Made by a program: the position numbers and the translations under genes
From: a virus
DNA length: 41,166 nt
Direction: 5' to 3' (one strand)
Virus record (IMG/VR): IMGVR_UViG_3300032311_000374
Location: 1-41,166 of that record
Part shown: positions 1-16,390 of the stretch, one piece after another
Layout of the letters: every line of letters begins with the position of its first letter
How positions within the stretch are numbered: position 1 is the first letter of the stretch
Notes under the pieces: model-generated
What the model was told of the DNA's origin: nothing
The model's database searches: none
Seen by the model: the letters and a program-made list of their open reading frames with translations, nothing else

Positions 1-1164
1 CTTAGTGTAAGCTGAAGCAGCTGCTGCGTTAGTATCAATAGAGAATCCAGCACCATTCCAATCATATCCTACTTTAGAAGACCAGTAGTCAGTTGTGAAA
101 GCGTTTTGTTGTAACATTTCTAAGATTTCTAAATCGATTTCTAAAGAGATGTACTCACTTAACATTTGAGTCAATTCCGCTTCTGCATCTACAGAGTGGT
201 ATGCGTTCAAATCTTGTGCAAGTTCAGGAGTCCAAATTGCTTTTAACTTACGAGTCTTAGCAACGATTGGTTCTGATTTCAATTCTAATTCGATTTCTGG
301 AATAACTAAATCAATACCTCTATCTTCAAAATCTCCACGAGAAATATCAGTAGGTTGTTTGTGGTATGATAAAGATACACCAACAGTAGATAAGTTAGAT
401 AAACCAGTTACAGTTGCAACGAATTCAACGTTAGAACCATTTTTAGTTGTGTATTGAGGATAAACTCCTGTTACAGAACCTGTTAATAAAGTTGGTTCGA
501 AAGCTCTGATACCATTCCAATCAGCGTCAGCTGGTAATGCTACAACGATTTTCTTCAATGTGTTACCTGCATAAGATGCAGAAACTGAACCTGAAGTTAA
601 ATCGTAATCGATATCAGCTAAAGATGCTGAAGCGAATGTTGCAGTGATTGCTGCAGTTGAGTTGTTGATTGTATAACCAAAACGTCCTGCACCATATAAA
701 CCACCTTCAGCTGCTTGAGTTGAACCTAATTTGTTTGTGTTTTGGTCTAAAGAATCTTTACCAAAAGTACCACTCTTACCAAATAAAGATGAACCTGTGA
801 AATCTGGATTACCCGCTGGGTTAGTACCATATTTGAAGTCCATATAGAAGATAAGACCTGAAGGTAAGTTCATTGGTTGAACCGAAACGAATTCTTTCGC
901 TGCGATAGAACCGAAGATACGTCTTACCAAAGGTAATGCTACACCAGCCCACTCTTCAGAACCTGAAGAAGTACCTGTTCTTGTAGCCTCATCCAATAAT
1001 TGTTTTGCTTGGTTTTCTAACATTACTGCCATACCATGCTTAGTTGTTTCAGAACCTACGTTCTCTAACAAACCTGTTTTTTCCCACTTAGCTTTCAAAC
1101 CTCTTGTTTGCTCTAACATAAGAGTCTGAGGATTTGCGCCAGTCATTAATTTTTTTAAGTCCAT
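1..1164 (-). CDS. 23: Major capsid protein, T4 gp23-like (partial, C-terminus beyond window)
   Basis: The frame is open from an ATG at 1164 to the window edge, giving 388 residues; T4 gp23 has 521, so the C-terminus is missing. It forms the hexameric shell of the prohead. The family signature is visible around residues 300-350, where TRKLKAIWTPELAQDL is followed by an acidic DAEAEL stretch and a segment like the gp23 'LAQDLRAVHGMDAEAEL' region. The motif LLDE-A at residues 56-60 fits the T4 prohead-protease rule ([LI]xE before a small residue) and lies near the gp23 maturation cut at residue 65, so E59/A60 is the likely cleavage point. It is the last gene of the packaging-portal-protease-scaffold-capsid series and begins 33 bases after the scaffold stop. 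The leader is A/T-rich with no Shine-Dalgarno. Confidence 0.93.
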   Translation of the reverse strand, partial: MDLKKLMTGANPQTLMLEQTRGLKAKWEKTGLLENVGSETTKHGMAVMLENQAKQLLDEATRTGTSSGSEEWAGVALPLVRRIFGSIAAKEFVSVQPMNLPSGLIFYMDFKYGTNPAGNPDFTGSSLFGKSGTFGKDSLDQNTNKLGSTQAAEGGLYGAGRFGYTINNSTAAITATFASASLADIDYDLTSGSVSASYAGNTLKKIVVALPADADWNGIRAFEPTLLTGSVTGVYPQYTTKNGSNVEFVATVTGLSNLSTVGVSLSYHKQPTDISRGDFEDRGIDLVIPEIELELKSEPIVAKTRKLKAIWTPELAQDLNAYHSVDAEAELTQMLSEYISLEIDLEILEMLQQNAFTTDYWSSKVGYDWNGAGFSIDTNAAAASAYTK

Positions 1165-1197: not shown

Positions 1198-2487
1198 TTA
1201 TTTAATAATACCTGCTAATTTCTTAAATCTGTCAGAGAAATTTGTAGATTCAGCAATTACTTGCTTAGTTACTGCTGGCTTAGTAGATTTTGTTACTTTG
1301 CTAGCGATTCCTTCAGAAATAGATTTTTTAGTAGATTTGTTAGAAGTTGTGTATTTGAAATTCTCTGCTAATGTAGAGTAAACCAATTTCACTTCTCTAA
1401 CTGAGTTAGTTCTGTCTAAAGTTTCAATTACTTTCACTTTTTGTTCGTTAGTCATGTTATGAGCTCTAAACAATTTGTTAGCGAATAATAATTTAGCGTT
1501 CAACAAATTAACTTCATTGATTGTTTTTTGTAAAGATTTGATAGTGTTGTAAGCTTCGTTCAATTCAGCTTCTTTTTCAGATTCTTCAGCTTCATCAACT
1601 TTTTCTGCATCATCTTTCATATCAGCTTCCATTTCTCTTAAAATTTCTTCTAAGTCGATAACTTTCTCACCATCTTTATCAGTACCGGCTTCAGCACCAT
1701 CAGTATAGTTTTCTTTCTTTACTGATTTTTTTGCTTCAGTAGCTGCTGGCTTCTCTTCTTCAGCATCTTCACCTTCTAATTCAGCTAATTGTCTTTTTAA
1801 TTCTGCAATTTGTGCCGCATTAGGGTCTTCAGCTGGAGCTTCTTCACCTGCTTCTTCTGAACCATCACCACCATCTAATTGAGCTTCTAACTCACGGATG
1901 ATAGCTTCTAAATCCATGTCATCTTCTGATTCTTCATCATCAGAATCCATTTCCATTGAATCCATACCATCAGCTTGTGCTGCAAACGGGTCTTCTTCTT
2001 CAGTACCCATTTCCATACCAGCCATTGGTTCTTCTTCAGAATCTTCTCCTTCTAATTCTGCTAATCTAGCTTTCAATTCTGCAATTTCTGCATCTTTGTC
2101 ACCTTCTTGGTCAGCGAAAGGATTTTCTTCTTCTTCGTTGATATCTGCTACTTTAGTGTAGTCAGTACCAGCTTGTTCTGGCTTACCACCATCTTTAGTT
2201 ACACCTACTGATAAATCAGTGTCTGCATCTAATGTTGGTTGTGCACCAGGAGTTTCAGCGTTATCAACTCCTACTTTAGAGCCAATACCATCTGAACTTA
2301 ATTCCTCGTCTACTTTTTCAGCATCCATATCCTCTGCTTCAGCTTCTGCTCTCATCTTTTGAGATAAGATAGATTGAAGTCTAGGAGTAAATGCTTCTTC
2401 AAGCGCAAGTTTTGCGTTTGCTAATGCAGTTTCTTTAACGGCTTTAGCATCGGCGATTGCTTCTTTCAATAATTTTGAATTTGCCAT
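1198..2487 (-). CDS. 22: Prohead core scaffolding protein, T4 gp22-like
   Basis: This 429-aa, strongly acidic protein is the internal scaffold around which the capsid assembles; in T4 it is later degraded by gp21. The N-terminus (1-50) is helical and begins MANSKLLKEAIADAK, with an LKE-A site fitting gp21-type cleavage. Residues 50-300 are Glu/Asp-rich low complexity with an internal A-B-A-B duplication. The C-terminal third (305-380) is the conserved part: a coiled coil (INEVNLLNAKLLFANKLF) followed by NSVREVKLVYSTL, as in other T4-like gp22 proteins. It lies directly upstream of the capsid gene, as in T4. The leader contains AAGGA about ten bases before the ATG, one of the few Shine-Dalgarno-like strings in the window. 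Confidence 0.9.
   Translation of the reverse strand: MANSKLLKEAIADAKAVKETALANAKLALEEAFTPRLQSILSQKMRAEAEAEDMDAEKVDEELSSDGIGSKVGVDNAETPGAQPTLDADTDLSVGVTKDGGKPEQAGTDYTKVADINEEEENPFADQEGDKDAEIAELKARLAELEGEDSEEEPMAGMEMGTEEEDPFAAQADGMDSMEMDSDDEESEDDMDLEAIIRELEAQLDGGDGSEEAGEEAPAEDPNAAQIAELKRQLAELEGEDAEEEKPAATEAKKSVKKENYTDGAEAGTDKDGEKVIDLEEILREMEADMKDDAEKVDEAEESEKEAELNEAYNTIKSLQKTINEVNLLNAKLLFANKLFRAHNMTNEQKVKVIETLDRTNSVREVKLVYSTLAENFKYTTSNKSTKKSISEGIASKVTKSTKPAVTKQVIAESTNFSDRFKKLAGIIK
1612..2091 (-). repeat. Internal A-B-A-B duplication in the scaffold gene
   Basis: Unit A (IAELKxxLAELEGEDxEEE) occurs at residues 133-153 (2029-2091) and again at 225-245 (1753-1815). Unit B (DLExIxRExEA) occurs at residues 192-206 (1870-1914) and 278-292 (1612-1656). 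The alternating order shows that a block of about 90 residues was duplicated. Both units read as short amphipathic helices, so the repeat probably lengthened the helical, acidic core of the scaffold. Confidence 0.8.
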
Positions 2488-2681
2488 CTTGTTTTTTCCT
2501 TAAATTTGTTTGTGAAGTTATTCTCTTGGGAACTCCAATGTAATTATGTTGATTGTTCGGTCACACCTTATAGAGAAGGGTATTCATTAATCAACTATTG
2601 TCTTAAAAGTAATCCCATATGAATGGGATATTTGATAATAAGTATGTAAATTTTTTAGAAAACTAAAGAAAAATAATAAAA
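2488..2681 (-). promoter_or_regulatory. Leader between bS21 and scaffold, with a hairpin
   Basis: This 194-base stretch has no credible gene and is the longest non-coding gap in an otherwise packed module. It holds a perfect 7-bp inverted repeat, ATCCCAT - 4 bases - ATGGGAT, at 2612-2629. A weaker CCTT/AAGG hairpin lies near 2570, and an AAGGA lies just before the scaffold ATG. On the coding strand the main hairpin is followed by TACTTTTA, too weak a U-tract for a confident terminator. It is probably the promoter and 5' leader for the highly expressed scaffold and capsid genes, or a processing site separating them from the bS21 message. The role is inferred. Confidence 0.4.
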
Positions 2682-2861
2682 TTACAAAGAATATTTATTT
2701 TTTCTTTTAGCTTCTTCGAGTTGTAACCTCTTTTTAACTGATTTTTTTGTAAATTCTTTTCGTTCTCTCAGTTCTTCTACTTGCTTTAATTTTTGAACTT
2801 TTCTCTTATATTCTTTTAAAGCCGTTTCTATATTTCCATTTTTGATATTAACTATCAACAT
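2682..2861 (-). CDS. rpsU: Phage-encoded 30S ribosomal protein bS21
   Basis: This 59-aa ORF starts MLIVNIKNGNIETALKEYKR. It has the bS21 layout: an N-terminal beta-strand with a basic and Gly/Asn turn, the 'IExALKxxKRK' helix (11-24), an 'ELRERKEFTKxSVKKR' segment (30-45) and a basic tail. Family members run from about 58 to 70 aa, so it is full length. bS21 sits next to the 3' end of 16S rRNA and takes part in initiation; in Bacteroidota it helps hide the anti-Shine-Dalgarno. The ATG is three bases after the preceding stop (2865), so it is co-transcribed with the prohead genes. Phage bS21 genes are known from freshwater and Bacteroidota phages. A phage copy could swap into host ribosomes late in infection, which is inference. 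Confidence 0.88.
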   Translation of the reverse strand: MLIVNIKNGNIETALKEYKRKVQKLKQVEELRERKEFTKKSVKKRLQLEEAKRKNKYSL

Positions 2862-2864
2862 ATA

Positions 2865-3158
2865 TTAACCTAATGCGTTTTCTAATGCTCTTTCGTATTT
2901 AGCTTCAATTCTATCTAAGAAATCTTTAGCTTTAGATAGATTATTTTGATTAGCTTTCAAATTAGTTAAAGCTTTTTGTCTATCTTCTTCAGTTTTTGCA
3001 CTAAAATATGGTTTAGATAAATCTTTCTGTCTATCTGATAGAGTTTGGTATTTAGCCAATGCTTCTAAATATTCTTTTGCAATTGGGTTAAATGCTCTAA
3101 CTTCTCTTTGAGATGGTCCTTCAGCTTCTTTTAATGGTATTAAATTTACTAATTTCAT
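2865..3158 (-). CDS. Small coiled-coil head-associated protein of unknown function
   Basis: The protein has 97 aa and is almost wholly helical and charged (many K, E, Q, A), with no recognised domain. Its first eleven residues, MKLVNLIPLKE, nearly match those of the otherwise unrelated protein at 8847-9383 (MKLINLIPIKE). Both end in [LI]KE, the T4 prohead-protease consensus. Together with its place between protease and scaffold, this suggests an internal head or core protein whose N-terminal tag is a targeting and cleavage signal. It lies 3 bases upstream of bS21 and 1 base from the preceding gene. The function beyond that is unknown. Confidence 0.75.
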   Translation of the reverse strand: MKLVNLIPLKEAEGPSQREVRAFNPIAKEYLEALAKYQTLSDRQKDLSKPYFSAKTEEDRQKALTNLKANQNNLSKAKDFLDRIEAKYERALENALG

Positions 3159-3979: not shown

Positions 3980-4570
3980 TTAATTTAATTCAATTATAAT
4001 TTCTCTCATCAAATCTTGTGAACGACACCACTTACCACATTCATCTGCTATTTTTGCCCATTGCTTTGATTCATTCATTGGTGCCATAAATGCTCCATGT
4101 GTAGATGGGTTTGATACAAAATCCCACCCAACTAATTCAAAGTCTTCCTGAACCATTACAGTCCCGTCTGATAACTCTTTTACCGAACCCAATCCTCTAC
4201 TACTAATACCTAAACGAATATTGTTTTTTAATAATTCTTTTAGAATATTTCCAGATGGAGTTGAAAGAATTTCTACTACACCACAAACATCATCGCCTTC
4301 CCAATATATTTCTCTAATATTATGAGAAACATTTTTTAAGTTGATAACCGGAGAATCTGGATGGTCTAATTCGCCTAATGCTCTTCTTTCTTTAATAAGT
4401 TGTTCGTATTTTTTACACTCTCTTTGTAAGATTTCTTTTGGATATCTTCTATGGTTTTGATTTGGAGCACCTGCTCTTTGTAAGATTCCCTTAACCAAAT
4501 AAGTTCCATTTTCCTCTTGCTGAAGTTTTGCTTCAAACAAATGAGTTTCTATTAATAATCCTTTATTCAT
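3980..4570 (-). CDS. 21: Prohead core protease, T4 gp21-like
   Basis: This 196-aa serine protease (U9/S78-type, herpesvirus-assemblin-like fold) cuts scaffold, capsid and internal proteins during prohead maturation. The family motifs are present: GELDHP at 66-71 with catalytic His70, GISSRGLG at 121-128 with catalytic Ser at 123 or 124, and VGWDFVSNPS at 147-156. Its own start, MNKGLLIE-T, and LFE-A at 11-14 fit self-cleavage sites. T4 gp21 is slightly longer (212 aa). It lies before scaffold and capsid as in T4, with five small genes in between. Its presence explains the [LI]xE motifs seen across this module. Confidence 0.92.
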   Translation of the reverse strand: MNKGLLIETHLFEAKLQQEENGTYLVKGILQRAGAPNQNHRRYPKEILQRECKKYEQLIKERRALGELDHPDSPVINLKNVSHNIREIYWEGDDVCGVVEILSTPSGNILKELLKNNIRLGISSRGLGSVKELSDGTVMVQEDFELVGWDFVSNPSTHGAFMAPMNESKQWAKIADECGKWCRSQDLMREIIIELN

Positions 4571-7052: not shown

Positions 7053-8798
7053 CTACTTTTTATTCAAATCTTCTGTCAAAATTCTCTTTTTACCACCTTT
7101 CATATCTTTAAATATCTCTTGATAATTAGTTCTTGGTTTGTATTTTACCGAGCCTTCTTTTTGTTTAAGAGTTTTAATACCCAACGGGTCTCTTCCTTCT
7201 GGATGGTCATCTTTACCATATCTAACTGGGTCTTTAGGTCTACCAACTCCTTCTTCTTCTAATTCACTTTTAATTTTTTGAATTTCTTCTTCTACATTAG
7301 TGGGGCCATCGGTACCTGTTTCTTTAGCAGGGTCTACACCCTGTGTTTCGATTGATGTTAAACGGAACATTTGTTTTGTATCATCCAATACTTGTAATGT
7401 AATTTCATCTTGCTCATCTTTAGCCATTTTCATTACTGCTTCATACATCCATTCTTTAGAGAACATTTTTGTTTGTTGCATTTGTTGAATTAGAGCTACT
7501 TTTGAAGTATATAATTCAACTTGCTCTTGCTCATAAATTTTAGATGGAATAGTAAGTTCTAATGTAAAGTTTGTTAAACGGTCATCATCTATACCCTGTG
7601 CATATAAATGTATGATTGCAATTTTAGTTAATTCTGAAATTAATACTCTTTGAACTCTTTCGATTGTTTTTGCAAAACGGATATCCATTGCTGCCAATGT
7701 TGCTTTACCATTGGTATCTTCTTCATATCCTAAATAAGCTTTTGGTATTTTTAAAGATGCCATCATTTTACCTTTTAGGTAATTGATATCATCAATCATA
7801 TTATATTCTAAACCTTTCAAAGTATCAATTGAAGTGCCATTATCACTACCACGAACTGGCATATAATAATCTTCAATAAGGTTTTGCATATTGTACTTTA
7901 AATTATACTCACCGGTTCTTTCATCAACAAATGGAACTTTTTTAGATGAGTTAATAATTTTTTGCATGTAGTTATCCACTTCATTTGGTGGAATATTACC
8001 AACATCTACTTTAAAAATTCTCTTTTCAGGAGCTCTCATTACTCTATGAATTAACATTGCATCTTCCATCAACATTAATTGTTTCCAAACTCTCCTAGCG
8101 CCTTCTATCATTGATTTACCATATGGTAAAAAATTTGAATCTGAATTTAAACGGAAGTGAGCCATCTCATAGTTTTCAAATTCTTTCTTTGGACTCATAC
8201 CATATGCTCCTAATGGATTTTGGTATGGTGCATAAACGAATTTAACTCGTTGAGGATTTTGCATATCAAACCCTTCCACTCTACTAACTTCATAGGTTGA
8301 TAATGGCATTACGTTTACAATACCAATACCTTCTTCTTCTGCTATTTCCAATTGTAAAAAGAAATCACCATATTTAACCAAGTTTCTTGTCCAAGGCCAT
8401 AAGTTAAATTCCACATTAAGAATATCGTAAAATAAGTTTTCTAAAATTTGTTTGATATTATCATCTTCGTGATGTATTTTTAATACATTACCCATCTCAT
8501 TTCTAGCAGTTGTTTCATCTGCGTACACATCTAATGCGGATGCTAAAATTGGGTCAGTATCCATTGAATCATAATCTCTAAACAAGTCAATTCTAACTTG
8601 CTGATATGCCATTGATGATTCTAATTGACCCGTACCATAATTAGTAACCTTTAGTTTCATAAAACGGTCTACTAAGTTTGTAGTCATATTTTGATACTCA
8701 TCGGTATCAATGACTTTAACTCCATCTGCTGTTTTACGAACTATGGTATTTGTTGAGAATAATTTTTGTAACCTACCTAATATTGATTTATCTGCCAT
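7053..8798 (-). CDS. 20: Portal vertex protein, T4 gp20-like
   Basis: This 581-aa protein forms the dodecameric ring at the unique capsid vertex through which DNA is packaged and to which the neck attaches; T4 gp20 has 524 aa. Family features include DTDPILASALDVYADE (about 80-95), WPWTRNLVKYGDFFLQLE (about 133-150), LMEDAMLIHRVMRAPEKRIFKVDVGN (about 242-267), and further on DYYMPVRGSDNGTSIDTL and KGKMMASLKIPKAYLG. The acidic/Pro-rich C-terminal tail ends RILTEDLNKK with an LTE site. It lies downstream of the terminase with one small gene between, as expected apart from the missing tail genes 18 and 19. The leader is A-rich. Confidence 0.95.
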   Translation of the reverse strand: MADKSILGRLQKLFSTNTIVRKTADGVKVIDTDEYQNMTTNLVDRFMKLKVTNYGTGQLESSMAYQQVRIDLFRDYDSMDTDPILASALDVYADETTARNEMGNVLKIHHEDDNIKQILENLFYDILNVEFNLWPWTRNLVKYGDFFLQLEIAEEEGIGIVNVMPLSTYEVSRVEGFDMQNPQRVKFVYAPYQNPLGAYGMSPKKEFENYEMAHFRLNSDSNFLPYGKSMIEGARRVWKQLMLMEDAMLIHRVMRAPEKRIFKVDVGNIPPNEVDNYMQKIINSSKKVPFVDERTGEYNLKYNMQNLIEDYYMPVRGSDNGTSIDTLKGLEYNMIDDINYLKGKMMASLKIPKAYLGYEEDTNGKATLAAMDIRFAKTIERVQRVLISELTKIAIIHLYAQGIDDDRLTNFTLELTIPSKIYEQEQVELYTSKVALIQQMQQTKMFSKEWMYEAVMKMAKDEQDEITLQVLDDTKQMFRLTSIETQGVDPAKETGTDGPTNVEEEIQKIKSELEEEGVGRPKDPVRYGKDDHPEGRDPLGIKTLKQKEGSVKYKPRTNYQEIFKDMKGGKKRILTEDLNKK

Positions 8799-9417: not shown

Positions 9418-11025
9418 TTAACGAAGTAACCAAGTTAAATTTTCAACTTCACCTTTCCCCAATTCCATTTCATATGGATTTCTACTTAAATGGCCTGTTG
9501 ATATCAATCCTTCGTATTTATTTATCTGAGAAGCATTCAACATACTCTTAGTCAAATCAATACCTTCTTGTCTTAAACGGAGTGCAGTATTACGAACCCA
9601 AAGTCCGATTGCTAATGCCATCGTCAAGTCATCATTGTAACCCTTCATAGCTTCTGCTCTACCACCATTCCAAATAAATGTAAATAATTCGTCTATGAGT
9701 CTCTGTGAACGTATTAGAATATCTTTATCATTCATATATGTATCCAATGCTGATATAATAAGAGGACGGGTTTTAGATGTTGTAGAGAATCCGGCAACCA
9801 TTTGTCTCTCATCTCTATAATATTTGTTACTCATTTGTCTTTCGGTATCTATATAGTGTAAATCGTTACTCATATAGAATAAGTTAGGATATGCTCTATT
9901 GATAATTTGTTGAATAGTTGCCCAACCTACATTTGAGTTCTCTACTACTAATAAGGCATTGTTATATTCGGTTGCCAAACTTACTAAAAAGTTTCCAAAA
10001 TCTTTTGTTTCGATTTTACCTTTATATTCTGCGACTTGAGAACTATCTTCGATATCAATTACTTGTACCGTTGAAAAATCGGCTCCATCTCCACGTGCAA
10101 CGTCGGCGGATACCATATATTGTCTATTATAGTTAGGATGTTCCCATACCCATAAATTACCATCAAATCCTCTCTTCTCAACCGGCTCTTGTACATAGGT
10201 ATCTTTATACCAAGTCAGTAATGCCGGGTCTATTACGGTATCACCTGAACCGATAAAGTCACAATCACATTCTTGTGCTGCTCCTTTGACCCCTAAGATA
10301 CGGGTTTGCTCATCTCTCCACGCTTGATTTCTTTCGGGGTGTACAGTCCAATGTAGATTAATACAATTAAAACCATTTTGACCGGCTTCACCTGCTACCC
10401 AAGTTTTATGAAAGAAATTACCAACACCATTTGGTGTAGAAAGAATTACAGCAGAACCACCCGTTGATAGAGTTGATTGTGCTGATAACCAAATTTCATC
10501 AATATCTCTAATAAATGCCGCCTCATCCACAACTAATAGGGATAGGGCTTCCGAACGTCCTGCATCTGGAGAAGATGCGATTGCTTTTACTTGCGAACCA
10601 TTCTTTAATTTAAGAGAAAGTTTATTATCTTCTACTGAACTATTACCACCATCTCTTAGCCAAACAGGAAGTAAGTCGTGCATAACTCTTACCTTTTCAA
10701 CCAAGTTCTTTGCAACCGTTACTTTTGTTGCAATAACCAATGCATTAAAATCTTGGTTGAATAACATTTTCCAAAGAATAAATCCTGCAGAAAGTGTTGA
10801 TAATCCTAGCTGACGGGATTTTAAAATAATATTAAAACGATTATCTTTAAAATCTGTCAAACATTCTTCCTGGAAAGGATAAAGGTGAAAGGGTATTTTT
10901 CCTCTCACCGGGTGTTGAATAACACAATACTTCTTCATAAAGTAAATGGGGTCTTGCCCACATTTACGATATTCTTCAGCTATTATTTCTTTTAATGACT
11001 TCTTTGGTTGCCCTTGAACTGACAT
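9418..11025 (-). CDS. 17: Terminase large subunit, T4 gp17-like ATPase/nuclease
   Basis: This 535-aa packaging motor docks on the portal, cuts concatemeric DNA and pumps it into the prohead. ATPase domain: SRQLGLST at 70-77 is a deviant Walker A (Leu replaces the usual Lys, as in many phage terminases), LLVVDEAA at 163-170 is Walker B with the catalytic Glu, and STPNG at 196-200 is the coupling motif. Nuclease domain: acidic residues in VSADVARGDGAD (D308), VVENSN (E362) and GYNDDLTMA (D465/D466) form the RNase H-like metal site. T4 gp17 has 610 aa. The ATG overlaps the stop of the upstream membrane-anchored protein by one base (TAATG). Confidence 0.96.
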   Translation of the reverse strand: MSVQGQPKKSLKEIIAEEYRKCGQDPIYFMKKYCVIQHPVRGKIPFHLYPFQEECLTDFKDNRFNIILKSRQLGLSTLSAGFILWKMLFNQDFNALVIATKVTVAKNLVEKVRVMHDLLPVWLRDGGNSSVEDNKLSLKLKNGSQVKAIASSPDAGRSEALSLLVVDEAAFIRDIDEIWLSAQSTLSTGGSAVILSTPNGVGNFFHKTWVAGEAGQNGFNCINLHWTVHPERNQAWRDEQTRILGVKGAAQECDCDFIGSGDTVIDPALLTWYKDTYVQEPVEKRGFDGNLWVWEHPNYNRQYMVSADVARGDGADFSTVQVIDIEDSSQVAEYKGKIETKDFGNFLVSLATEYNNALLVVENSNVGWATIQQIINRAYPNLFYMSNDLHYIDTERQMSNKYYRDERQMVAGFSTTSKTRPLIISALDTYMNDKDILIRSQRLIDELFTFIWNGGRAEAMKGYNDDLTMALAIGLWVRNTALRLRQEGIDLTKSMLNASQINKYEGLISTGHLSRNPYEMELGKGEVENLTWLLR

Positions 11026-12394: not shown

Positions 12395-15300
12395 TTAAGC
12401 GTAAAAAATACCAAGTATCTGATTTAGTGGTGCAAATGTACCTGTAAGTTTATATGTTTTACCACCATAGAAGAATACTAATCCTTCACTAGCTACAATT
12501 CTGTCTACTCCACCTAATTTGTTTAATCTTGCTAATTCTGATTTTAATTTTGCTATTTGAGCAGGATTTCCTGCTGTTCTAACTTGAGCCGCAACTGATT
12601 TAAATTTATCCTTCATAGCTCTAATTGCTTTATCAGGATGTACAGTTAATACTGAACTAACAAAATCTAATATATCTGCACCAACTCCTAAGAATATTTC
12701 TTCAAATGGTCTGATATTATCTTTTTGTTGTTTTGCAACATTAACTTTATCATTATTGATTGCCCAAGCTAAAATCTTTTCGTTTGTGATATTATTTTTA
12801 TCTAACCTAAATGCTTTTTCACCAAATGCCCATCTTCTAACCAACGCATCTCTTGTTAATTTATCAACTTTCTCAGGTGATTTAGTATTTATGAAATTTT
12901 CCCACCAAGCTTGATGATAATTTGCTACGTTATCTCCATCGGATAACCCAAATTGAGATTGTAATTTAGATAATCTACCCAAATACTTTCCTTGCTTACT
13001 ACTTAGGTTTTCATTCTTTGGTATTGATGTTACCGGCGGGCCTTGAATTGTATATTTAGATTGTACATCTGCATTAACTTGCTTAATCATTCCCGCTAAT
13101 TGAGATGCAGCTCCCTGATTTGCTCCAATAGCAGTTCCCTTATCATCATAACAAGTTGTATTATGGAATACTAATATTGCTTGTCCATAAGGAATAACAT
13201 TAACTGATGTTGGCCATATTACTTCCAAATTCATAAAACATCTACCATCATTAAATATTTTCTTTCGTTGAGCTTCTGATAATGAACTAATTGCTGCTGT
13301 TAAATCTCTCATTGCGAAATTATATGCATCAGTCAATGCACCTCTACCACCAAACTTAGATGCTACATCAGCTATTCCCATTGCGCCTGCTCCTGCGTTT
13401 GCTAAATGTGATTTGTTACGAGCTGCAATTAATCTACCATTTTTCCAACTGATTGCCAATGCTTGTCCATCGGTTTTTTCTCTTACTACTCCTAAATCAC
13501 CATTAAGTGCTTTTGAAATAATATTCTTTAAATCACCAAAAGTTAAATCCATATCATCAAATGGATGGCTCATATGTCCATATGCTCCACCTTCTAATAA
13601 TAATGATTCGTTAAGAGTTTTTTTTTCTACAAACTCATGTAATCCTAATTTATCAGTATAATCCGTTACTTCTCTATAACCACTATATCTTAATTCCCTT
13701 GCAACATCGTTTCTAGTTGCTCGAGGATTAGCACAAACTGCTGCTCCTATTTTTTTTCTACCGAATGAACCTGCTTTATCCCACAATTTCATAATTGCTT
13801 TAAAATGCCAATCGGAAGCACTAACTTCATCTGTTGATTTAAAAACGTTTTGTCCCTTATCACCCATTCTAAATGTAGTCGCCACTTTACCATTTATTGT
13901 TGGCATTCCGTGGTCATCTTTTCCAAAATCTTTAACGGTAACTTTTTTATTTTTAAATTTACCCATCAAAACAGTATCACCTTTATCAACATCTATATTG
14001 ATATCTTCTGTATAGATTTTCTTATTGATTCTACCATATTCTCTCATTAAAATTCCAGCTACTGCATGTGCATTGTTTTCAATTGGAGAACCATCGTTAC
14101 CATCGGATTCATTTTTCACTAATCCCATTTCATCTTGCTTTCTATGAACCATTTCATGTGCAATAGTTCTAAGAATATCTGCTCCCAATCTTCCTTCAAT
14201 TGCTACATATATTTCTTTAGTTTGTGGATTATACCCACCCAATGAAGTTTTTGTTTCTGCAAATTCACCACCACCTATTAGATTTACTTTTGGTTGTTCT
14301 TTTAATTTCAAACGACCCGTTGCCCATTCTACAAAGTGTTGAATAGATTTTTGTTTTGTTTCTGAAATATTTTCTTTTAATAAATCTTCTAAATCTTTTT
14401 TAGGTTTATTTTCATTATATTTTCTTATAGAATCTAACATTTGTTGATTAGACATTTGATATGTAGAAAGTTTTTCTAATGTTTTAGATACAACTTTATC
14501 TACAAACTTAGCACCACTATCATCTCCTTCACCTTCCATTAAATGCCCAATCACACCAACAGCGGCTGTTGCGCCAGCAGCACCAGTTCCACCCAATCCC
14601 ATTGTTTCAAAAAATGAGTGTTTGGCTAAATCTTTTCCAAGATGGGATGCAAATCCAGCTGCTCCATGATGTACCAATCCGGTTACACCATGTACTGCCC
14701 CATGTCCGGCTCCGTGTGCAATTGCCGTACCAACACCATGTGCACCGGCCGCTTTTGCAGCTGCGATACCACCACCTATTGCTCCACCAATTGCAGCTGC
14801 TCCAATCATAGATGCTCCTAATAATACAACATCTTTTGCTAAATGCTTTAATGCGTGCTTTTGTTTATGATGTGCTTCTTTACTATATTCGTACTTTCCT
14901 GTTTCTTCGTTTTTTACATAACCCAATTTACCGCCTGAATTGATAAGAGATTTAACACTATCAACGCTTCCTGTAACCATTTCTTTTTTCTCATGTGCCC
15001 AATGTTTTGCACCATCCCACAATCCTTCTCCTTTTTTCTTAAACCAATCACCAATATTTTTGGCAGTTGATTTTCTACTTTCGGAATTAGGGTCATTCAT
15101 TTCTTTTGCAGCCGATTGGTCTTCTTTTGATAACTTGGCAACTTCTTTATCCAACTGTTGCTTCGTGTCACGTTCTCTCGGGTCTACCGGCGGCTTTTCT
15201 GCCGATGATTTTAATTCGGCTCCACTTAATTTATTTGGTGGTGGTAATTCTTTTTCAGCTGCACCATCTCCTTTAGCTTTATCCGATTTACCTTGAGCGG

Positions 15301-16390
15301 TTTGGTCTTTCTTAACAGGTTGACCTGGTTCAGCTGGCTTAGCCGATTGAGCTGCTGCTTTTCCAGGTTGTTCTTTTGGTTTTGGTTCATTTACAGGAGC
15401 ATCATCTGGTCCTGCTATTTTTGCTGCTTGAATATGCGCAGGATGTTCTTTTGGTAATCGTAAGGCATCTCTTGCTTTAATTTTCTTTTGTTCTCCTTTA
15501 CTATTTGTATAAGATATATCAACATCCAATGCTTTATTTCCAGCTTCATTGAAATATTCACTAACAAAATCTTTAAATATTTCTTCGGCCGCTACTCTAC
15601 CTAATAATTCTGAAATTGGGTCATATGGTGCTTTGTTTCCGTCAAATGCTTTTTTCTCATCTTCTGGATGTTCGGTTTCATGTCTTGTAGGATGTGGCTC
15701 AGGTCTAAAAGCAGAAGATGGTTTTGTGTTATTACTTTCATTTGTAGAACCCGTTGGTGCTCCATTAATGTATCCGCCTGGAAGATTTAATCCAACACCT
15801 ATTCCACCTGGCATTCCATCTTCGTTTAATTTGCCTGTTATCATTTTGTATATATCTTTATCAAATTTTGGATATGCTTTTAAGAAAAACTTCTTTGATT
15901 TTTCTTTATCATCGCTTCCCAAACCATTACGAACATCAGTTCCACTAATTGGATTTTGTTCAGCTGGTACTGGGTATACATAACCAATTTCATCATAACC
16001 ATATCCCATTTTATTTTTATATGGTTTAAAATATTTACCATGTAATCTATTAGCATCCTTTTCGCCAACTGCTGCAATATATTGAGTAGTTTTACCATCA
16101 AATTTAGAAAGTATTTCTTTAGGAGCATATGGATTTCCAACTCTAATAAATTTAGATGATGGAATTCCAAACATTGTAGTTGCTATTTTTTTCTTCTCAT
16201 TAAAATTAAATGGAGATTTATCAGAACTTGTATCGTTTGATGTACCTATGTAAACATTGTTAGCACCAAATTGTGATACTAATTTTGAATAAGTAGCATA
16301 ATGTCCTTTATGGAATGGTTGAAAACGACCTGAGTATACAACTACTAGCTTCGTTACTTTTGGTTTATCTGCTTCGTTTATTGAATTCAT
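12395..16390 (-). CDS. Giant multidomain protein: cytidylyltransferase-like, zinc-peptidase-like and KxDG ligase-like domains
   Basis: The protein has 1331 aa. Residues 12-185 are an HxGH nucleotidyltransferase domain: GRFQPFHKGH at 21-30, NNVYIGTSND at 44-53 and ISGTDVR at 148-154, the counterpart of the ISSTxIR motif. Residues 190-450 are hydrophilic linker. Residues 517-620 are Gly/Ala/His-rich and partly hydrophobic, perhaps membrane-active. Residues 738-760 hold AHEMVHRKQDE, an HExxH zinc-peptidase motif. Residues 965-1331 look like an ATP/NAD-dependent nucleic-acid ligase core: EKTDGQ at 971-976 (KxDG lysine K972), NLEVIW at 1054-1059, EGLVFF at 1302-1307 and KLTG at 1314-1317. [LI]xE sites (INE-A at 4-7, LNE-D at 188-191, LNE-S at 927-930) flank domains, so cleavage by gp21 is possible. 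It is probably an internal virion protein; the reactions are unproven. Confidence 0.8.
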   Translation of the reverse strand: MNSINEADKPKVTKLVVVYSGRFQPFHKGHYATYSKLVSQFGANNVYIGTSNDTSSDKSPFNFNEKKKIATTMFGIPSSKFIRVGNPYAPKEILSKFDGKTTQYIAAVGEKDANRLHGKYFKPYKNKMGYGYDEIGYVYPVPAEQNPISGTDVRNGLGSDDKEKSKKFFLKAYPKFDKDIYKMITGKLNEDGMPGGIGVGLNLPGGYINGAPTGSTNESNNTKPSSAFRPEPHPTRHETEHPEDEKKAFDGNKAPYDPISELLGRVAAEEIFKDFVSEYFNEAGNKALDVDISYTNSKGEQKKIKARDALRLPKEHPAHIQAAKIAGPDDAPVNEPKPKEQPGKAAAQSAKPAEPGQPVKKDQTAQGKSDKAKGDGAAEKELPPPNKLSGAELKSSAEKPPVDPRERDTKQQLDKEVAKLSKEDQSAAKEMNDPNSESRKSTAKNIGDWFKKKGEGLWDGAKHWAHEKKEMVTGSVDSVKSLINSGGKLGYVKNEETGKYEYSKEAHHKQKHALKHLAKDVVLLGASMIGAAAIGGAIGGGIAAAKAAGAHGVGTAIAHGAGHGAVHGVTGLVHHGAAGFASHLGKDLAKHSFFETMGLGGTGAAGATAAVGVIGHLMEGEGDDSGAKFVDKVVSKTLEKLSTYQMSNQQMLDSIRKYNENKPKKDLEDLLKENISETKQKSIQHFVEWATGRLKLKEQPKVNLIGGGEFAETKTSLGGYNPQTKEIYVAIEGRLGADILRTIAHEMVHRKQDEMGLVKNESDGNDGSPIENNAHAVAGILMREYGRINKKIYTEDINIDVDKGDTVLMGKFKNKKVTVKDFGKDDHGMPTINGKVATTFRMGDKGQNVFKSTDEVSASDWHFKAIMKLWDKAGSFGRKKIGAAVCANPRATRNDVARELRYSGYREVTDYTDKLGLHEFVEKKTLNESLLLEGGAYGHMSHPFDDMDLTFGDLKNIISKALNGDLGVVREKTDGQALAISWKNGRLIAARNKSHLANAGAGAMGIADVASKFGGRGALTDAYNFAMRDLTAAISSLSEAQRKKIFNDGRCFMNLEVIWPTSVNVIPYGQAILVFHNTTCYDDKGTAIGANQGAASQLAGMIKQVNADVQSKYTIQGPPVTSIPKNENLSSKQGKYLGRLSKLQSQFGLSDGDNVANYHQAWWENFINTKSPEKVDKLTRDALVRRWAFGEKAFRLDKNNITNEKILAWAINNDKVNVAKQQKDNIRPFEEIFLGVGADILDFVSSVLTVHPDKAIRAMKDKFKSVAAQVRTAGNPAQIAKLKSELARLNKLGGVDRIVASEGLVFFYGGKTYKLTGTFAPLNQILGIFYA

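Follow-up and report, generated by a model that had tools for sequence, protein, structure and literature searches.

Why should a phage keep a gene for a ribosomal protein among its head genes, and what would that protein do to the ribosomes of the host? bS21 is the commonest ribosomal protein in viruses, and a gene for it lies within the head-gene cluster of a 41-kb IMG/VR fragment (record IMGVR_UViG_3300032311_000374, positions 1 to 41,166), analyzed here as one stretch of 41,166 nucleotides and hereafter called the window. In Bacteroidota, the anti-Shine-Dalgarno (anti-SD) is locked by a pocket of bS21, bS18, and bS6, and Tyr54 of Bacteroidia bS21, stacked on A1534, guides the 16S 3′ tail into this anti-SD-hiding pocket (PMC9976891). 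Chen et al. (2022, ISME Commun 2:31, PMC9723584) proposed that phage bS21 redirects the ribosomes of Bacteroidetes late in infection.

The 59-aa open reading frame (ORF) originally called as bS21 is real, running from ATG to stop on the minus strand (the plus-strand translation of the same interval is interrupted by stops), and its identity was borne out by Pfam, PHROG, and PDB sequence matches (Table 1). The match to Ribosomal_S21 (E 2.6e-11) was above the gathering cut-off of 27, the PHROG family is annotated as “ribosomal protein S21”, and the top PDB sequence match was Flavobacterium johnsoniae bS21 (7jil_z, E 6.8e-9, over 51 residues). As the frame is retained in ~100 related viral loci and is under purifying selection, it is not a chance ORF. 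Modeled alone with AlphaFold2, the protein formed a single long helix (residues 11–58; pLDDT 84, pTM 0.45), but an isolated model is uninformative about the two-helix fold adopted on the 30S platform, which is probably set by rRNA. The SVKKR motif and N-terminal helix bear out the claim that the bS21 motifs are complete; the C-terminal contact with the anti-SD does not, as Tyr54 is replaced there (Arg53 in the phage numbering).

Along the minus strand, terminase and portal gp20 come first and are separated by several small genes from the S77 protease; three small genes then precede bS21, and a 194-nt gap lies between bS21 and a 429-aa scaffold-like gene, with capsid gp23 last. Portal, prohead protease, capsid, and large terminase (TerL) all passed Pfam cut-offs, which confirms the capsid-operon setting of bS21. 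Its more precise location, between a probable internal head protein and the scaffold, was right as to placement; the 97-aa gene upstream of bS21 belonged to no family in the Pfam search, and “scaffold” is a positional name for a protein without a Pfam match above cut-off or any PHROG match. Since bS21 starts only 3 nt after the 97-aa gene, it is probably carried on the upstream head-gene transcript. Elsewhere in the window, a 1331-aa protein (12395–16390, minus strand) encoded beside the head genes is an unusual fusion: its N-terminus is a cytidylyltransferase-like domain (PF01467), and its C-terminal third shows, by eye, a ligase-like EKTDGQA motif. A big block of sugar-nucleotide, shikimate-dehydrogenase-like, TPP-enzyme, radical SAM, and SGNH-type genes (16902–41164) recalls glycan-modifying phages, with Pfam matches for some of the genes and the SGNH call made by eye.

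Table 1. Features of the bS21 locus in the window, and positions of the leader RNA in related records
Feature	Position	Strand	Evidence or remark
Major capsid protein gp23	1..1164	minus	PF07068, 128.8 bits; 3′ end beyond window
Scaffold-like gene, 429 aa, acidic	1198..2487	minus	Named by position; same-slot homologues in relatives
Conserved structured leader RNA, bS21–scaffold gap	2487..2665	minus	Covariance model R1, 188.8 bits; covariation; no Rfam match
AAGGA Shine-Dalgarno of scaffold gene	2497..2501	minus	AAGGAG in many relatives
Leader hairpin 3 (GGAGUU/AACUUC)	2513..2537	minus	G-U to A-U change in 6 sequences
Leader hairpin 2: covarying outer stem, invariant internal loop, inner CCCUU/AAGG stem	2548..2595	minus	
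Leader hairpin 1	2612..2629	minus	5/7 pairs covary
Phage bS21 gene, 59 aa	2682..2861	minus	Pfam PF01165, 43.5 bits; PHROG 21469; dN/dS 0.08–0.38
Codon 53 = Arg, place of F. johnsoniae bS21 Tyr54	2703..2705	minus	Alignments
97-aa gene immediately upstream of bS21	2865..3158	minus	3 nt gap; weak PHROG 2113, E 0.0037
Prohead protease (S77)	3980..4570	minus	PF03420, 102 bits
Portal gp20	7053..8798	minus	PF07230, 234.7 bits
Large terminase	9418..11025	minus	PF03237, 30.5 bits; PHROG 2
Leader in relatives	L155:18316-18483; L166:15757-15930; L201:7210-7381; L050:14880-15009		

To place this gene among its relatives, a first scan yielded 46 viral loci, of which ten (L002–L011) have the window's gene order with bS21 on the head-gene strand; in nearly all of the others, bS21 lies opposite the head genes and the portal is only 37–42% identical to the window's. 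These opposite-strand loci fit the bS21 phages that Chen et al. described (PMC9723584) and are referred to as Chen-type. Scans by portal alignment and by leader motif then enlarged the window's clade, which is T4-like and separate from the Chen-type phages, to 102 comparable bS21 loci, a few of which are overlapping pieces of the same contig and so counted twice. Wherever a clade locus includes both bS21 and head genes, as the window does, the two lie on the same strand.

Throughout this clade, the residue at position 54 has changed. The alignment runs without a gap from the invariant Ser-Val motif (S41-V42...R45) to position 54, which across the 102 loci is Arg in 97, His in 5, and Tyr in none; because some of the loci overlap, it is safer to count distinct proteins, of which 61 have Arg and 4 have His. 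By comparison, Tyr occupies this position in 36/36 Chen-type loci and in 65 of 76 Bacteroidia copies (Phe 3, His 1, others 7), so that about one in ten Bacteroidia copies is non-aromatic there, and the residue is aromatic in all 61 phage bS21s of Chen et al. (PMC9723584). The original prediction had invoked the help that bS21 gives in sequestering the anti-SD, which was not borne out as written: with Tyr54 missing clade-wide, the phage protein would be expected to release the anti-SD and not to help hide it. Loss of the rRNA-contact residues had been named as grounds for refuting the idea; such a loss was seen at position 54 but is not apparent elsewhere in the protein. A search of 10 records for a phage bS18 that might restore the pocket found none.

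In the bS21 tree, the window's clade forms one group (100/91) that joins the Chen-type phages (99/83) beside Flavobacteriia-like, Tyr54-bearing sequences, although finer branching is unreliable in a tree of 64 columns. The two phage groups stayed together when column 54 was removed (SH-aLRT 94), and Tyr54 was thus probably lost en route to the window's clade. The phylogeny against Flavobacteriia hosts, another check proposed at the outset, therefore traces the phage protein to a Flavobacteriia-like lineage that bore Tyr54. From this tree, the SD-less genes described below, and relatedness to Flavobacterium immuto phages, the host appears to belong to Bacteroidota. Farther T4-like relatives (L155, L165, L191, L195, L199, L200, L202, and L206) also have a bS21-like gene directly ahead of the scaffold gene; position 54 is Arg, Ala, or Leu in these proteins, some of which carry a long basic tail. 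In the tree they fall on long branches away from the clade, and bS21 may therefore have entered this slot on more than one occasion.

Would a released anti-SD find messages to pair with? The AAGGA described ahead of the scaffold ATG is present, and most window genes do lack an SD, as had been stated: gene starts are A-rich and Bacteroidota-like, and the mean SD-ASD energy is −0.78 kcal/mol, vs −1.95 kcal/mol in mock windows. General SD use by the phage genes was accordingly rejected, since their SD affinity falls below that of mock windows; the same method gave 56% SD use vs 4% mock in Microcystis phage Mel-JY01, a positive control. The scaffold is the one gene of the clade with a conserved SD, which reaches −5 kcal/mol or lower at 73% of unique sites (vs 8% for other genes and 15% for mock windows) and −8 kcal/mol or lower at 48% (vs 1.7%). 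The suggested link between this SD and bS21 was not supported by co-occurrence: among 16 relatives without bS21 ahead of the leader, AAGGA is kept in 94%, so its conservation does not need phage bS21, and one bS21-bearing subgroup (L208/L250/L274) has lost it. In seven records without bS21 at the scaffold slot, including ones of 198 kb and 245 kb, no bS21 was found elsewhere in the available sequence. Host rpsU is marked by an SD of < −13 kcal/mol (PMC9976891); at −5 to −8 kcal/mol, the scaffold SD falls short of this. The SD of the window's bS21 gene itself reaches −3.1 kcal/mol, and a strong one (−8 kcal/mol or lower) was seen at 0/43 unique clade sites vs 22% in hosts, which places phage bS21 outside the SD-based autoregulation of host rpsU.

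The scaffold SD sits at the end of a conserved leader RNA for which the strong evidence is comparative only, as the single-sequence fold of the 194-nt gap is unremarkable (z −1.5). Across 32 aligned leaders (31 distinct), 99.8% of cells were paired and 7 pairs had changed on both sides, vs pairing of 35–47% and 0–1 both-side-changed pairs in a control with slid partners. These leaders were selected by an exact 25-nt motif, and that choice partly accounts for how invariant the inner stem and loop are; the same element is present in ten loci found via bS21 alone. A covariance model recovered it from the corresponding position ahead of the scaffold gene in L134 and L142 (in the latter with an inner stem that is changed but paired), in more distant phages such as L155, L166, and L201, and weakly in immuto. 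The records in which it was found span 81 to 245 kb, and each has a single copy. Rfam gave no match at gathering score, and a search of the region at E up to 10 gave chance-level matches only, outside the leader. The element is apparently an undescribed RNA of the scaffold-capsid operon of T4-like Bacteroidota phages and, since it also occurs where bS21 is missing, does not serve bS21 specifically; more likely, it controls or stabilizes the scaffold-capsid message. In L219, L281, L317, L319, and L322, the leader joins the scaffold gene interior at varying points, as if the scaffold 5′ end had been deleted, either as an assembly artefact or in reality.

Our best explanation, tentative and somewhat short of an even chance, is that a working bS21 enters the host 30S subunit during head-protein synthesis and that loss of Tyr54 loosens the anti-SD, biasing initiation. 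Mechanistically, the phage protein would most likely fill newly made or bS21-stripped subunits and so create a phage-modified ribosome, in which Arg in place of Tyr54, like the basic residue at this place in Escherichia coli bS21, would hold the anti-SD more loosely. Initiation would then shift from the host state to messages able to pair with the 16S tail, and the scaffold-capsid message, with the sole conserved SD, would be the obvious candidate beneficiary. We infer 30S incorporation, late timing, anti-SD release, and an effect on any message. Published findings in favor of this reading are that a pelagiphage bS21 was incorporated into E. coli ribosomes (PMC6375957), a related phage bS21 was transcribed along with late structural genes (PMC9723584), and F. 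johnsoniae Y54A ribosomes made ~3 times more protein from the strong-SD rpsU, with SD-less tuf normal (PMC9976891). On a weak-SD mRNA, Y54A ribosomes performed worse than wild type, not better (PMC9976891). Also counting against loosening, some Bacteroidia are non-aromatic at 54 too, and the pocket residues of host bS18 and bS6 would be untouched. A fuller version, in which the Tyr54-less bS21 opens the host-locked anti-SD and the scaffold-capsid message benefits through its SD and dedicated leader, giving specialized ribosomes clade-wide, seems unlikely to us; the bS21–scaffold SD coupling is unproven, because the SD is kept in bS21-less relatives and is weaker than those that Tyr54-mutant ribosomes exploit. 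If true, it would be a natural two-part orthogonal translation system.

The proposal of Chen et al. offers a plainer substitution, in which phage bS21 displaces host bS21 and favors phage mRNA via a divergent N-terminal helix, Arg54 being neutral and the other pocket contacts sufficient. We consider this somewhat unlikely, although it would account for Val at 23 and Gln at 28, which are common to the window's clade and the Chen-type phages and rare or absent in sampled hosts, and although a freed anti-SD would help few of the SD-less phage genes and some Bacteroidia cope without Tyr54. Neutral drift from a Tyr ancestor, however, should have given more variety than the observed absence of Tyr54 in 102/102 loci, with Arg in 97. 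Alternatively, bS21 might shut off the host by entering its ribosomes and impairing initiation on host mRNAs, with the leader RNA or some other feature protecting phage messages. E. coli ribosomes with pelagiphage bS21 kept only ~5% of GFP synthesis (PMC6375957), and F. johnsoniae ribosomes whose bS21 lacks its C-terminus are poor at initiating on SD-less mRNA (PMC9976891), but the phage messages have the same SD-less, A-rich Bacteroidota starts and would suffer too, and the leader stands on the scaffold message only, which makes this account quite improbable. Simple supply, with the phage topping up an exchangeable bS21 or replacing host bS21 lost to defence or degradation and leaving specificity unchanged, would suit a late-assembling, dissociable protein (PMC9976891) made free of host autoregulation for want of a strong SD; it gives no reason to expect position 54 to change across the clade and is quite unlikely. 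That bS21 acts outside the ribosome, binding the adjoining downstream leader RNA to control scaffold-capsid expression, is in keeping with an RNA-binding protein encoded next to a highly conserved leader but very unlikely, as both leader and SD are intact in relatives for which records of 198 kb and 245 kb contain no bS21.

Bacteriophage bS21 in capsid clusters and its proposed late redirection of Bacteroidetes ribosomes are already published (Chen 2022, PMC9723584). What is new here is the clade-wide loss of the residue that locks the anti-SD and a single conserved SD with a dedicated leader. About 100 phage loci carry a natural change at Tyr54, a residue whose mutation is known to alter message choice, beside the sole phage gene with a conserved SD, and the idea of virus-specialized ribosomes becomes testable via one residue swap in F. 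johnsoniae, for which strains, reporters, and in vitro assays are available.

By portal (48%), the nearest annotated genomes are Flavobacterium immuto phages (MW353176) and Microcystis phage Mel-JY01 (PP395634), which have a similar head-gene order. bS21 was sought in the immuto genome and none was found, in contrast to the window, while Mel-JY01 carries rpsU on the same strand in the corresponding region but differs in that its bS21 is very divergent, has Lys at 54, and accompanies genes that use SD. In Mel-JY01, with a portal near those of the Flavobacterium phages, this RpsU (L051:14731-14958) is followed by a 388-aa gene (L051:14977-16143) with YRAVS / YVSTT / ESE motifs, ADP-ribosyltransferase-like by eye and with no Pfam match. 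Pelagiphage HTVC008M (Mizuno 2019, PMC6375957) is likewise a myovirus encoding bS21, and ribosome entry was shown for its protein; that bS21, however, comes from a Pelagibacter host and was tested in E. coli, where anti-SD sequestration is not involved. F. johnsoniae bS21 (7jil; McNutt 2023, PMC9976891) is homologous over 51 residues, but its rpsU has Tyr54 and an extended autoregulatory SD, and the phage copy has neither. The closest parallel is with the huge phages of Chen et al., whose bS21 is also Flavobacteriia-like, lies among TerL, portal, prohead protease, and capsid genes, and shares one phage group with the window's (99/83), even though the window's portal is only 37–42% and its TerL about 28–34% identical to theirs. 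The same study surveyed 900 published bS21 phages for context only (PMC9723584), and members of the window's clade may be among them. In the phages of Chen et al., bS21 is encoded on the opposite strand and is always aromatic at 54, whereas in the window's clade it lies on the same strand and carries Arg (97) or His (5).
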